Positions 6,277 through 13,114 of a DNA stretch of 34,332 nt are shown piece after piece. The stretch is from Bacteroidia bacterium (GTDB taxonomy: Bacteria > Bacteroidota > Bacteroidia > Bacteroidales > GWF2-35-48). Where the stretch lies: the NCBI GenBank assembly GCA_016212695.1, contig JACREX010000171.1, forward strand, positions 1 through 34,332. Reading direction: 5' to 3'. A program made the translations under genes and the position numbers. Each line of letters begins with the position of its first letter. Within the stretch, counting starts at the first letter, position 1. The notes under the pieces are model-generated. The model was not told the origin of the DNA. It saw only the letters and a program-made list of their open reading frames with translations, and made no database searches.

Positions 6277-8147
6277 TTATTCTTTCACGAGTTTTTTGCA
6301 AACCTTATTACCGCCGTCAGTAATACATACAATGTAGAATCCGGGTGAAAGGTCTTTTATCTGAATCCTTGTCTGTTCTTCATGAATATTACCGGAACAG
6401 ATAATTCTTCCTGAAATATCGGTGATGCTGTATGCGCTTTTCTTCCCGCTATATTCAATGACAAGTTCGGACGTTGCAGGGTTAGGATAAATTATAATTG
6501 AGTTTTCTAATTGAGAAATATGGTCAATATCTTCAAAATGTTCACATGATGGAAAATTATTGTTTTTATACCATTTTTTTATGTTATCTGCTATTAATTG
6601 CACATTTTGAACACTTGAATATTCATCTCCGGAAATTGCTCTTGCCCAAATAAAGGCAACATCAATGTTAACGACTTCTCCTGGTTCAAATGTAAACGGC
6701 CCCATTGATCCTAAGCCGCGCCTATCACTTGGAGGATTAGCCTCGCCTTTTTCACACCAGCCTAAAACGGGATTGGTAGGCGCTGGAGGAGGATAGCCGT
6801 CTGTACCGTAATCGCATAAATCTGTTTTACCAGGAAAAATAAATTTTGTAGTTAAGCCTGTTGTATCATGGCCTGTACCACCAGATGTCAATGGTAAACT
6901 ATCTTTCCAAAAACCTCTTAAATATTGAAAATATTGTACGGGTGTGGTAGGATCACACATATCTGAGCAACTACCATTATGAAAGCCATGAATCTTGTAT
7001 AACCCCATTTCTCGTTATCAACAATATTATCACCAAAATTAAACCCATTGATGTTGCCATTTAAAAAATCACCGCTATTTACATAAGTATAATTACCAGA
7101 TATAGAGTCAATCCGATAACCACCTGAACAATCTAATGAGGAACTACTGTTCCAGTTTGTAAGATCATCCAAACCATTTGGATCCTGATATGGCCCACTC
7201 AGCAACATAACACCCAATGCGGGAGGGGGTGGGCTGGGTCCTCCATAAGCTTCAGGTTGTCCGGTGCCGTCAATTGACATTCCATTATAAAAAAAATACA
7301 TATTTCTCATTAAATCAAAACCGGTATAATCATCATAACCATACCCTATATCGGCATCTGTAAACAATCCGACAAATGTATTACTGTAAGTTTTTGCGCT
7401 TCTATTAATAATCTTATATGATAGAAATGTGAGGTAATTAATGGCATCAATACTATCATTTGAAGGATTATTACAATTGTAATTAAAAGCTGATACCCTA
7501 ACTTCAACCTTCAGTGGTGTTCCACCTGTTTCTCCATGTGGTTTTGTATTATCATTAAACACATACCAAAGCATCTGATCTCCTTTTATGATTGGGTAAT
7601 CACCGTCATTCGGATTATAAAAGCCATCGGAATTATTATCAAAAAAAGGAGCTAAATATTCATCATATTCAGAAGTAGGGCCATGTGCAGGCCAATTAAC
7701 TATCGCATCAGGAATTGAATAATTTTGATTCAATAAACCATTTTGGTATCTGTAGATGAATTCTTCAATTTCAGTCTTTTTTATTTTCCAAATTTTATTG
7801 TAAAGTAATGATGTTGCAGTATCGGTTGAGCCGTCTGTTATTTTTAAGGGCCCGGGATAAAAATCTTGGCCGGATTCCATGTATCTATGCGCGCCAAGAT
7901 GTAGCTGCCCATTATTATCAGTACCCCCTATCCATAAAGAATGGGAAAAAACAGATGTCTTGCCGGAACCTTTAGGTACCTCATATTTAGCGTTACCCTG
8001 TAAATCCCAGAAAGCATTATTATTATTCCAATACCATGCTTTAACTTTGTTTAAATCTAAAGAATCATGTGTTTGGAATAAGCCATTTTGTGCATTGGCA
8101 GTATTTACCAACAATACAACTACGAGTAAATAAAAGAGTGTTTTCAT
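6277..8147 (-). pseudogene. T9SS-secreted surface protein, frameshifted
   Basis: Two overlapping minus-strand frames (8147-6918 and 7008-6277) together give one protein of about 623 residues. It starts with a signal peptide (MKTLFYLLVVVLLVNTANAQ) and a domain with FWDLQG, YEVPKGSGK and LWIGGTDNNGQL, common in large Bacteroidota surface proteins of unknown function. It ends with a type A sorting domain (IIIYPNPATSELVIEY; GFYIV; KKLVKE). The family reads through KWGYTRF into FHNGSCSDMCDP without a break. Here the frame changes at the AAA run at 6982-6984 (TTT on the coding strand), as if one T were lost. A sequencing error or a real mutation are both possible. If functional, it would be exported to the cell surface by the type IX system. 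It stands alone upstream of no obvious partner. Confidence 0.8.
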
Positions 8148-9983: not shown

Positions 9984-10439
9984 TTATTTTTGTATCTTGT
10001 CTTCTTCGTTCATAAAACCAACAAGCACGGTAACACAGCCTTTTGCGATTTCATCAATAAGAGTTTCAACTGTTTGCACCTGAATGGCAATAATCAGTTG
10101 TTGACTTGATTCCAAGGTGAAATCCCATGTTTTTGCAAAACCTTTTTCTTTATTGGAATAAAGAACTTTTCTTTTTGAATCCATCACCTTGAATTCAACC
10201 TTAGGCATGGTTTCTTCTGCTACCACTGCAATCCTGTATTGCTGTCCGGAATAAAATGTTTTATATAATTCCGCTGTTTCGCCTTCTGAAAGGACTGTGG
10301 CATTATAGATACCGTCGTGTATAAACGGGAGCAGATCTATTTTTGCTTTTTTAGCAAAATTTTTGCACTGGGCATTTCCCCAAAAAGGGATAACTGATAA
10401 TGCTGATAAAATCAATAAAAACTGAAAATACTTTTTCAT
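9984..10439 (-). CDS. Small exported protein of unknown function
   Basis: A signal peptide is clear when the ATG at 10439 is used (MKKYFQFLLILSALSVIPFW, then cleavage after NAQ). The longer frame to 10463 begins with GTG and overlaps the upstream gene, so I prefer the ATG, giving 151 residues. The mature part is a beta-rich domain of about 130 residues (SGQQYRIAVVAEE, VEFKVMDSKRKVLYSNKE) with two cysteines. The pattern is like lipid- or ligand-binding periplasmic domains, but I do not recognise the family. It follows the lipoprotein gene by 10 bases and is probably co-transcribed with it, then ends at an intrinsic terminator. Confidence 0.78.
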   Translation of the reverse strand: MKKYFQFLLILSALSVIPFWGNAQCKNFAKKAKIDLLPFIHDGIYNATVLSEGETAELYKTFYSGQQYRIAVVAEETMPKVEFKVMDSKRKVLYSNKEKGFAKTWDFTLESSQQLIIAIQVQTVETLIDEIAKGCVTVLVGFMNEEDKIQK

Positions 10440-10449
10440 ACTATCAAAA

Positions 10450-11370
10450 TTATTTAATGACACTGGTTCTGAAATTTTCTACTTTTACTATTAAGCGGTC
10501 GATGTCTTCTTTTTTATAAATCATTTCCGTTTTCACGCTCAATTTTGTTACTTTATCATCTTTGCTGCCGACCGGTTCAATATTTGACGAATTTACTTTT
10601 ACCTGATCAAAAATCAATTTTATTTCATTTATATCTTTCAGGATCGAGGTAATATCTTCGTTTGGTACTTTGTTTTCATTTTCCAGCATATTAATTAATG
10701 TAGTTAATGATAACTTTTGGTCAATAATCCTGGTGATTAAATCTTTGTTATTTTTTGTTGTCTTTACCAACTGGGTTGAAAGGTACAAGCCTTCAATCCA
10801 TCCGCCTGCTAAAATGATAGCTGCGATTTGTGTACGCTGGTTGTCCTTTAGATACGAGTTTGAGTTCATAAAAGTTTCAGAAATTATATCCATAATGGAA
10901 TCCCTGTTGTTAACATTATTTTCTAGCCGGTTGATGATAGACTGGTCAATGGCGCTCAGAATGCCGAGTTTATCGGCTAATTTCTTTGAGGCGGCCATAT
11001 ATTTGATAGAGGTCTGATTCTGGTCATATAAACTGGCATAGCTGAGGTCTGCGCTATATACTCCAAGATTCAGCGCCATTTGTTTGCTGGTGGTATATTT
11101 ATTTACATTGTCGAGTTTATTGAGAAAATCTTCGTTATACTGGGCGCCGGCTTTTTTCAGAATCATGGCCGTTTCGATAGGAGATGGCAAAGCAAAAAAT
11201 ATCTGTTTCGCTTTAAAAACCTTGAAATCTGTTTCAAGGTCTTCGGTTTCTCCCTGCTTGCCGTCATCATTTAATACATTGTTTTCATTGGTGCAGCTAA
11301 AAAATATAGCTGCAAGCCCAATAAACAGTGCGATTTGTATATTTCTAAAATTTAACTGTTGAATGCTCAT
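10450..11370 (-). CDS. Lipoprotein of unknown function, paralogue A
   Basis: A lipoprotein signal with lipobox IFFSC places the lipidated cysteine at residue 26, so the protein should sit in a periplasm-facing membrane leaflet or on the cell surface. A low-complexity acidic linker follows. Then comes an all-helical domain of about 240 residues with ALPSPIETAM, KQMALNLGVYSADLSYASL and ILAGGWIEGLY. No catalytic motif is seen and I do not recognise a named family. It is a close copy of the gene at 11507-12421: from KQMALNLG to NNRDSIM only one residue differs out of about 64, while the linker is unrelated. It has its own -7 element (TAATTTTG), so the two copies can be expressed separately. Confidence 0.85.
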   Translation of the reverse strand: MSIQQLNFRNIQIALFIGLAAIFFSCTNENNVLNDDGKQGETEDLETDFKVFKAKQIFFALPSPIETAMILKKAGAQYNEDFLNKLDNVNKYTTSKQMALNLGVYSADLSYASLYDQNQTSIKYMAASKKLADKLGILSAIDQSIINRLENNVNNRDSIMDIISETFMNSNSYLKDNQRTQIAAIILAGGWIEGLYLSTQLVKTTKNNKDLITRIIDQKLSLTTLINMLENENKVPNEDITSILKDINEIKLIFDQVKVNSSNIEPVGSKDDKVTKLSVKTEMIYKKEDIDRLIVKVENFRTSVIK

Positions 11371-11432
11371 AAATTTAATTGTTCATGTCTAATATTTCCG
11401 GTTGGTAAATGTAATATTATATTTTAAAAGTA

Positions 11433-11440
11433 CAAAATTA
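11433..11440 (-). promoter_or_regulatory. -7 element for lipoprotein A
   Basis: The coding-strand box TAATTTTG fits TANNTTTG. It is about 63 bases upstream of the ATG at 11370. No TTTG is seen at the right -33 distance, so only half the promoter is supported. Confidence 0.4.
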
Positions 11441-11506
11441 AACAATTATCTGAATTTTAAAAGCATCTTGTAGATTTTTTTATAGTAATGAAGTAATGCG
11501 AAGTGT

Positions 11507-12421
11507 TTATTTAATTATATTGCCTCTGAAAACATCTACTTTTGCAATCAGTTTGTCAATATCTTCTTTTTTGAACAATACCTCGGTCTTTACATTTAAT
11601 TTGGTAACATTAGTCTTTTTATCGGTAACAGGTTCAATATCCCCGGAACTGATTTTGATCTGATCAAAAATAATCTTGATTTCGTTCAGGTCTTTGAGGA
11701 TTGTCGAAAGATCTTCGTTCTGAACTTTATTTTCGCTTTCTAACAGATCCAATAATGTTTTTAAGGATAGTTTCTGATCGATTATTCTTGTGATAAGGTC
11801 TTTGTTATCTTTTGTGGTTTTAACCAACTGGCCTGAAAGATACAAGCCCTCAATCCAGCCGCCGGCAAGGATCATGGCAGCCATTTGTGTTCTCTGATTG
11901 TCTTTGAGATAGGAATTTGAGTTCATAAATGTTTCAGAAATCACCTGCATAATAGAATCCCGGTTATTGACATTATTTTCCAAGCGGTTGATGATAGACT
12001 GGTCGATGGCGCTGAGAATCCCCAACTTGTCAGCCAGCTTTTTCGATGCAGCCATATATTTGATCGAGGTCTGGTTTTGATCAAATAAACTCGCATAACT
12101 GAGATCAGCGCTGTAAACGCCAAGATTCAGCGCCATCTGTTTGCTGGTGGAATATTTATTTACATTTTCAAGTTTGTTGAGAAACTCTTCGTTATACTGG
12201 GCGCCGGCTCTCTTTAACATCATGGCTGTTTCAATAGGAGAGGGCAGCGCTATAAATATCTGGTGAACCCTCAAAGAATCTTCCCGGATTTTATTAGTAA
12301 GTTGCTTATCGTCTTCACCTATATTGGTATTTGTTTCTGAGGTGCAGCCGTAGAAAAGCGAAACCAAACCGATAACAACGAATACTTGCAAGGTTTTGAA
12401 AAATAAACATTTGGAATTCAT
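11507..12421 (-). CDS. Lipoprotein of unknown function, paralogue B
   Basis: The signal ends in LFYGC with the lipidated cysteine at residue 26, exactly as in paralogue A. After a short linker (TSETNTNIGEDDK) the same helical domain follows, with ALPSPIETAM, DQNQTSIKYMAASKKLADKL and a C-terminal KKEDIDKLIAKV. The DNA of the two copies has many silent differences although the proteins are almost identical in the core. This suggests an old duplication held by selection, not a recent copy. The function is unknown; an envelope role is likely from the lipobox. The gene has a full promoter (TTTG, 18 bases, TACTTTTA) and is divergent from the HEAT-like gene. Confidence 0.85.
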   Translation of the reverse strand: MNSKCLFFKTLQVFVVIGLVSLFYGCTSETNTNIGEDDKQLTNKIREDSLRVHQIFIALPSPIETAMMLKRAGAQYNEEFLNKLENVNKYSTSKQMALNLGVYSADLSYASLFDQNQTSIKYMAASKKLADKLGILSAIDQSIINRLENNVNNRDSIMQVISETFMNSNSYLKDNQRTQMAAMILAGGWIEGLYLSGQLVKTTKDNKDLITRIIDQKLSLKTLLDLLESENKVQNEDLSTILKDLNEIKIIFDQIKISSGDIEPVTDKKTNVTKLNVKTEVLFKKEDIDKLIAKVDVFRGNIIK

Positions 12422-12601: not shown

Positions 12602-13114
12602 ATGAAAAAAATTAATGTTCTTACAGAAAAACTAAATTCAAAAAATCCTGAAATAATTCTTGATGCAATCCTTAAGCTAAGAAATAAAGGAACTTTTCAG
12701 GTAATAGCCCAGGTTGTAAAATTATTGAATACAACCCAAGATGAAGAAATAAAAAAAGCAATCCTTAATTTTCTAAACGATTTGAAAAACAAAGAGAGCA
12801 TTCCGGAAATCGTTGCTGCAATCAAAAATCCGGTTTATAAAAAAAATCTGCAACCCCTTATATCGTCGTGCTGGCAGTCGGGACTTGACTATAGCAATTA
12901 TTTAGCAGTTTTTACAGATATTGTGATCCGGGAAAATTACGCGGCGGCTTTTGAAGCGTTCACGGTCATCGAAAATATGTACGGCATTATATCAAAAAAA
13001 GAAATTGATATAAATATTAAAAAACTCAAATCCGCTATAAATATTAAAAATAAGGAGAAAAGTTATTTATATGTTGAGCTGGTTAAGGTTTTATCTGCGA
13101 AACAGGGTGATTGA
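12602..13114 (+). CDS. HEAT-repeat-like helical protein
   Basis: The 170-residue product is built from paired helices (ILDAILKLRNKGTFQVIAQV; VVKLLNTTQDEEIKKAILNF; ESIPEIVAAIKN). This fits three or four degenerate HEAT repeats of the kind used for protein binding. There is no signal peptide, so it should be cytoplasmic. Small proteins of this type are common in Bacteroidota without known function. The gene is divergent from lipoprotein B and its stop lies only 7 bases from the stop of the convergent yggS gene. That leaves no room for a terminator between them, so the two transcripts probably overlap. Confidence 0.75.
   Translation: MKKINVLTEKLNSKNPEIILDAILKLRNKGTFQVIAQVVKLLNTTQDEEIKKAILNFLNDLKNKESIPEIVAAIKNPVYKKNLQPLISSCWQSGLDYSNYLAVFTDIVIRENYAAAFEAFTVIENMYGIISKKEIDINIKKLKSAINIKNKEKSYLYVELVKVLSAKQGD

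Follow-up and report, generated by a model that had tools for sequence, protein, structure and literature searches.

Two tandem lipoproteins, LipB and LipA, encoded in a 34,332-nucleotide stretch of Bacteroidia bacterium DNA (hereafter the window), belong to a family of Bacteroidota lipoproteins, here named LIP, which has a small exported protein family of roughly 130-250 amino acids, here named PART, as its constant companion. LIP and PART are new protein families; the kind of system proposed for them, an ABC transporter under regulation and with accessory partners, is known. On balance, we favour the view that both are extracytoplasmic parts of a fused TerB-NBD-TMD exporter of the ABCG/WHITE type (TerB-ABC), some copies of which are controlled by Sia-type phospho-switches, and that the window pair may act in trans. 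The tandem pair had been picked out earlier in a sequence-only reading of the window, which missed that the two genes are only two of the eight LIP paralogs of their genome and part of a larger system with TerB-ABC, as well as the Sia-type kinase/phosphatase switch present at many loci.

Both lipoprotein genes are complete open reading frames on the minus strand, and each encodes a lipobox signal peptide, with the lipid cysteine at the residue where it had been placed (Table 1). The two proteins are 74% identical across 303 aligned positions, with 36% identity in the N-terminal 56 columns of the alignment. Their core, described before as near-identical with one change, has 64 of 65 residues in common, the sole difference being Tyr/Phe. 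The frequent silent changes in the DNA were likewise found, as 14 of the 21 fourfold-degenerate sites in the core differ; over the whole genes, pN is 0.16 and pS is 0.72, which is saturated. These values indicate strong purifying selection, as had been proposed for the core, and rule out a recent tandem duplication with a low synonymous distance.

Table 1. Features of the lipoprotein region, in window coordinates.
Feature	Position	Strand	Description
PART	9984..10439	-	151-aa exported protein, 10 bp gap from lipA
lipA	10450..11370	-	306 aa, lipid Cys26; downstream copy, transcribed second
Near-identical core of lipA	10891..11085	-	residues 96-160
lipB-lipA gap	11371..11506	-	136 bp; Bacteroidota-type -7 element TAATTTTG at 11433-11440, consensus match only
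lipB	11507..12421	-	304 aa, lipid Cys26; upstream, transcribed first of the tandem pair
Near-identical core of lipB	11948..12142	-	residues 94-158 (KQMALNLG...NNRDSIM)
HEAT-repeat-like gene	12602..13114	+	170 aa; divergent, upstream of the lipoproteins

The linkers between cysteine and core were the point at which the earlier reading had to be revised. They had been taken as unrelated, free to change, and suited to presenting the same domain at different distances. Their sequences have indeed diverged (38% identical), but the Cys-to-PSP tethers of the window pair are 34 and 36 residues long, so unequal tether lengths are ruled out, and in 47 of the 48 LIP members measured, 29-41 residues separate the cysteine from the core. 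Furthermore, the tether of LipA shares 71% of its residues with the orthologue from a sister species (locus L051), compared with 38% for LipB, which means that its change is not free; as judged from these alignments, the tether is paralog-specific and constrained.

The tandem arrangement is local to the window. At the corresponding site of the sister species a single copy is present (L051, which is also locus L042 of the MAG Bacteroidetes bacterium GWF2_35_48), and tandem LIP copies elsewhere are only sporadic (L158, L159, L161). In the family tree, lipA, lipB and L051 form one clade (support 99/96), within which the grouping of lipA with L051 is weak (88/40). At L161 (2675-5907, genome G017), remnants of LIP and PART form a decayed array next to an intact LIP, which suggests a recent loss in one lineage. 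At L052 (600-3551, genome G001), an extra LIP paralog lies just 3' of a BlaI/BlaR1-like pair (genes of 138 and 533 aa, recognised by eye). In the window itself, the -7 element in the gap between the two genes is consistent with lipA and PART having a promoter of their own, as they may; the predicted RNA fold of this gap is ordinary, with nothing unusual. At seven loci of this clade (the window, L051, L059, L065, L066, L071 and L073), the HEAT-repeat-like gene has been kept upstream of LIP in divergent orientation; its place in the system is uncertain. Two further minus-strand reading frames of the window (6277-7008 and 6918-8147) overlap in different frames and together resemble one secreted protein, which points to a frameshift, or to an error in the sequencing of this draft contig.

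Profile searches show LIP to be a large family: it is clearly present in 28 of 60 relatives, with a marginal match in one more, and in 161 of 393 genomes sampled from the order, but in only five of a phylum-wide set of 395. The family had been called unrecognised, and this holds. Neither LipA nor LipB matched Pfam or NCBIfam above a curated cut-off, LipB had no credible match in the PDB, and searches of 33 diverse members against Pfam gave no family common to more than two of them; a profile of these 33 sequences found as its best PDB match 62 residues of a proteasome subunit (E 0.009), which is not credible. No characterised lipoprotein family was thus matched. Across 80 members, the lipid cysteine, G101, E191 and R299 are invariant, and G187, D106, D155, Q216, W189, Y122 and P62 are conserved in more than 90%. 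An AlphaFold2 model built from five sequences (mean pLDDT 70) predicts a core made wholly of helices (61-252), together with a beta hairpin and a helix at the C-terminus, and a fold search with it gave no match at E below 0.4. Profile comparison detected no homology of LIP to the transporter loop described below, to TerB or to PART. No LIP relatives were seen among viral contigs, and a role in anti-phage defence was dropped, since PADLOC had no match for LIP or PART.

PART is the small exported protein to which the second lipoprotein copy had been linked, and this link recurs very widely. Among the 60 relatives, a genome-wide profile search found 118 PART matches, of which 102 lie no more than 3 kb from a LIP start, every one of them on the strand of that LIP; PART is downstream in 101 of these 102 pairs, with a median gap of 11 bp. 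It was found in all 28 LIP genomes and in one other (G020). In the window, PART carries a signal peptide followed by a mature N-terminal cysteine (AQ-C), and has no lipobox. At L159, a single reading frame fuses PART (1-138, E 1.8e-34) to LIP (162-417, E 2.9e-70), which has no lipobox of its own there; although a single case in a draft genome, this fusion is evidence for joint action in one compartment. The model of PART is a predicted beta-sandwich, for which the best fold match is GOLD/PPC-like (E 2.3e-5, TM 0.74 normalised by target). It resembles the GOLD domain of p24/TMED and bacterial PPC-type beta-sandwiches in fold, not in sequence, and searches of the PART sequence against Pfam and the PDB gave no family match, GOLD/PPC included. 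As the model derives from two sequences and is of low-to-moderate confidence (pLDDT 63), this likeness is one of fold class only.

Many LIP paralogs adjoin the fused transporter, a protein of about 1025 residues. In the linked TerB-ABC, ABC_tran (265-416) and ABC2_membrane (563-778) lie in one chain, which is the ABCG/WHITE-type layout, and the best NCBIfam match, TIGR00955, falls below its cut-off. The Pfam TerB domain was matched in two of four tested N-termini, and Pfam found an FHA domain in none of these four proteins. The glycines and lysine of nucleotide binding are conserved. Hydropathy analysis of 56 proteins places a loop of 181-225 residues (about 195) before the last transmembrane helix, the position at which ABCG proteins have their third extracellular loop. 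The genome of the window encodes four TerB-ABCs, the fourth of which (L138, 5030-9273; G000:C171) is found at the end of a contig, preceded by response-regulator-like genes, so that any LIP following it would fall beyond that end.

Clustering of LIP with this transporter is established from genome-wide searches: 57 of 96 TerB-ABC matches lie no more than 6 kb from a LIP, always on the same strand, where about 2% would be expected. Among the 57 TerB-ABC loci fetched, LIP stands within four genes at 42, SiaB/SiaC adjoin at 26, and the exact order SiaB-SiaC-ABC-LIP-PART is seen at 14. A PAS/GAF-SpoIIE gene of about 870-1120 aa precedes SiaB at, for example, L063, L163 and L142, the last of these outside the order of the window. 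At L063 the genes match PF07228 (SpoIIE), PF19788/NF038262 (SiaB) and PF09345 (SiaC), and L163, L142 and others have the same gene order; the SiaC equivalog model scored 86.8 bits, below its cut-off of 150. This set of phosphatase, SiaB kinase and SiaC is present at linked loci and absent from the window.

The two genes also occur together across genomes. LIP and TerB-ABC were found in the identical 28 of the 60 relatives and in the identical five of the 395 phylum genomes. In the order, where the two genome lists were matched by genome handle, 155 of 393 genomes have both, six LIP only, one TerB-ABC only and 231 neither. Since genomes are not phylogenetically independent points, no probability is attached to these counts. 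Five families (f3, f13, f23, f32 and f50) contain some members with both genes and others with neither, which argues against a single ancient origin of the link, though the positive genomes of f3 have 5-8% contamination. Furthermore, LIP co-diverges with both neighbours beyond the species signal. The distance correlation (Mantel) is r 0.84 for LIP and ABC (41 pairs) and r 0.79 for LIP and PART (74 pairs), and none of 2000 within-genome shuffles of loci reached either value. In all these comparisons, reading frames were called mechanically and most genomes are drafts. In four genomes of family f136 (G475, G576, G663 and G729), the searches gave one divergent LIP match each (E ~1e-29) and none for TerB-ABC; in these, LIP could function without the transporter.

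The exporter model would account for these observations as follows. The fullest operon would comprise a PAS/GAF-SpoIIE phosphatase, a SiaB-type kinase, SiaC, TerB-ABC, LIP and PART. TerB-ABC would carry a substrate, hydrophobic or of the envelope, outwards from the inner membrane, and its conserved loop of about 195 residues would hand over to, or be gated by, the lipid-anchored helical core of LIP, with soluble PART as a putative adaptor between the two in one physical complex. At Sia-linked loci, phosphorylation of SiaC, read by the cytoplasmic TerB domain, would set the activity of the transporter. We infer the complex, the direction of export, the substrate, the phospho-readout by TerB and the action in trans; the linked, co-diverging set of genes is what the computations show. 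The clade of the window, 24 of 80 tree rows, keeps LIP and PART and has no adjoining ABC gene, so the pair is tied to a transporter through its family only; our guess is that its LIP and PART would serve one of the four TerB-ABCs of the genome in trans, or modulate them, with LipB as a second, diverged copy. The absence of an ABC gene beside this clade speaks against the exporter model, as do the six genomes of the order in which LIP and no TerB-ABC was detected, a LIP clade with ABC and without PART, the TerB match in only some N-termini, and the lack of a fold match for the moderate-confidence LIP model. A bolder form of this model is offered tentatively, as somewhat doubtful: a new class of phospho-switched envelope export system in Bacteroidota, in which a TerB-ABCG protein with its extracytoplasmic domain of about 195 residues would deliver substrate to LIP and PART, and in which some of the 3-10 LIPs per genome, the window pair among them, would be detached, interchangeable front ends.

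The main rival is a signalling role without transport, which we regard as unlikely. Here LIP and PART would bind an envelope ligand or report stress, TerB-ABC would be a transmitter or effector, and the Sia phosphatase/kinase would read the state. The many LIP-PART loci without an adjoining ABC gene, that of the window included, would fit such a sensory pair, and so would the SiaB/SiaC genes beside the 26 ABC loci and the PAS/GAF-SpoIIE sensors within the operon; the conserved polar residues of LIP (E191 and R299, together with D106, D155 and Q216) could form a ligand site. However, the ABC protein retains its nucleotide-binding residues and its ABC2 membrane domain, as would be expected of an active transporter, LIP co-diverges with it, and several clades have ABC and LIP without Sia.

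It is rather improbable that the window pair has lost its transporter tie and consists of independent, subfunctionalised envelope lipoproteins, for example at the surface, whose tethers set their sites, as the earlier reading had suggested. Such a role would agree with the lack of an adjoining ABC gene in this clade and with tethers that differ between the two copies and are conserved in the orthologue of LipA. However, the tethers are nearly equal in length, and none of the 60 relatives is a clear case of LIP without TerB-ABC. Surface lipoproteins of Bacteroidota, which resemble LIP in being lipobox lipoproteins, carry an export signal, K-(D/E)2 or Q-A-(D/E)2, just past the lipid cysteine (PMC5080379). 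In LIP this published motif, of which the variant in this lineage may differ, is absent, and in 33 of 72 members the five positions that follow the cysteine contain no acidic residue; the missing acidic cluster argues weakly for a LIP that faces the periplasm. No Sus-like genes were seen among its recurrent neighbours. A role of LIP and PART, with or without ABC, in lipoprotein biogenesis or quality control is very improbable: genes recognised by eye as lspA lie directly upstream of LIP (L045, 7419-8063; L053, 7604-8275) and as lgt two genes away (L049, 9619-10425; L057, 8940-9749; L103, 4853-5707), but these represent only about three independent lineages, neither gene is found at most loci, and chance linkage to housekeeping genes would readily explain the proximity.

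Two described systems are the nearest analogues of the parts of the proposed exporter, and their combination was not found in the open-access literature. In Mycobacterium tuberculosis, the FHA-NBD-TMD ABC transporter Rv1747 shares an operon with the Ser/Thr kinase PknF (PMC3908365, PMC5549992). Like TerB-ABC, it is a fused regulatory-NBD-TMD half transporter, probably an exporter, beside genes of Ser/Thr phospho-signalling. TerB-ABC differs in its N-terminus, which is of TerB type rather than FHA, in the added loop before its last transmembrane helix, and in its lipoprotein and exported beta-protein partners; moreover, a SiaB/SiaC/SpoIIE partner-switch takes the place of the Hanks kinase. SiaABC(D) is a phosphatase/kinase switch of Pseudomonas aeruginosa (PMC7647112), and a PP2C/SpoIIE phosphatase, a SiaB-family kinase and SiaC are adjacent in this order at the Sia-linked loci. 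At these loci the output gene would be TerB-ABC with LIP and PART, and the window has none of the Sia genes. In a search that covered open-access literature and few subscription journals, no paper on TerB-ABC or on this operon was found.

The analysis places two unannotated families, LIP and PART, in a multi-gene system that about 40% of the genomes sampled from the order contain. It also proposes, for TerB-ABC transporters and for phospho-switches of the Sia type beyond biofilm control, a role that can be tested. If the export model is true, it would show how Ser/Thr phosphorylation and envelope export are linked in Bacteroidota.
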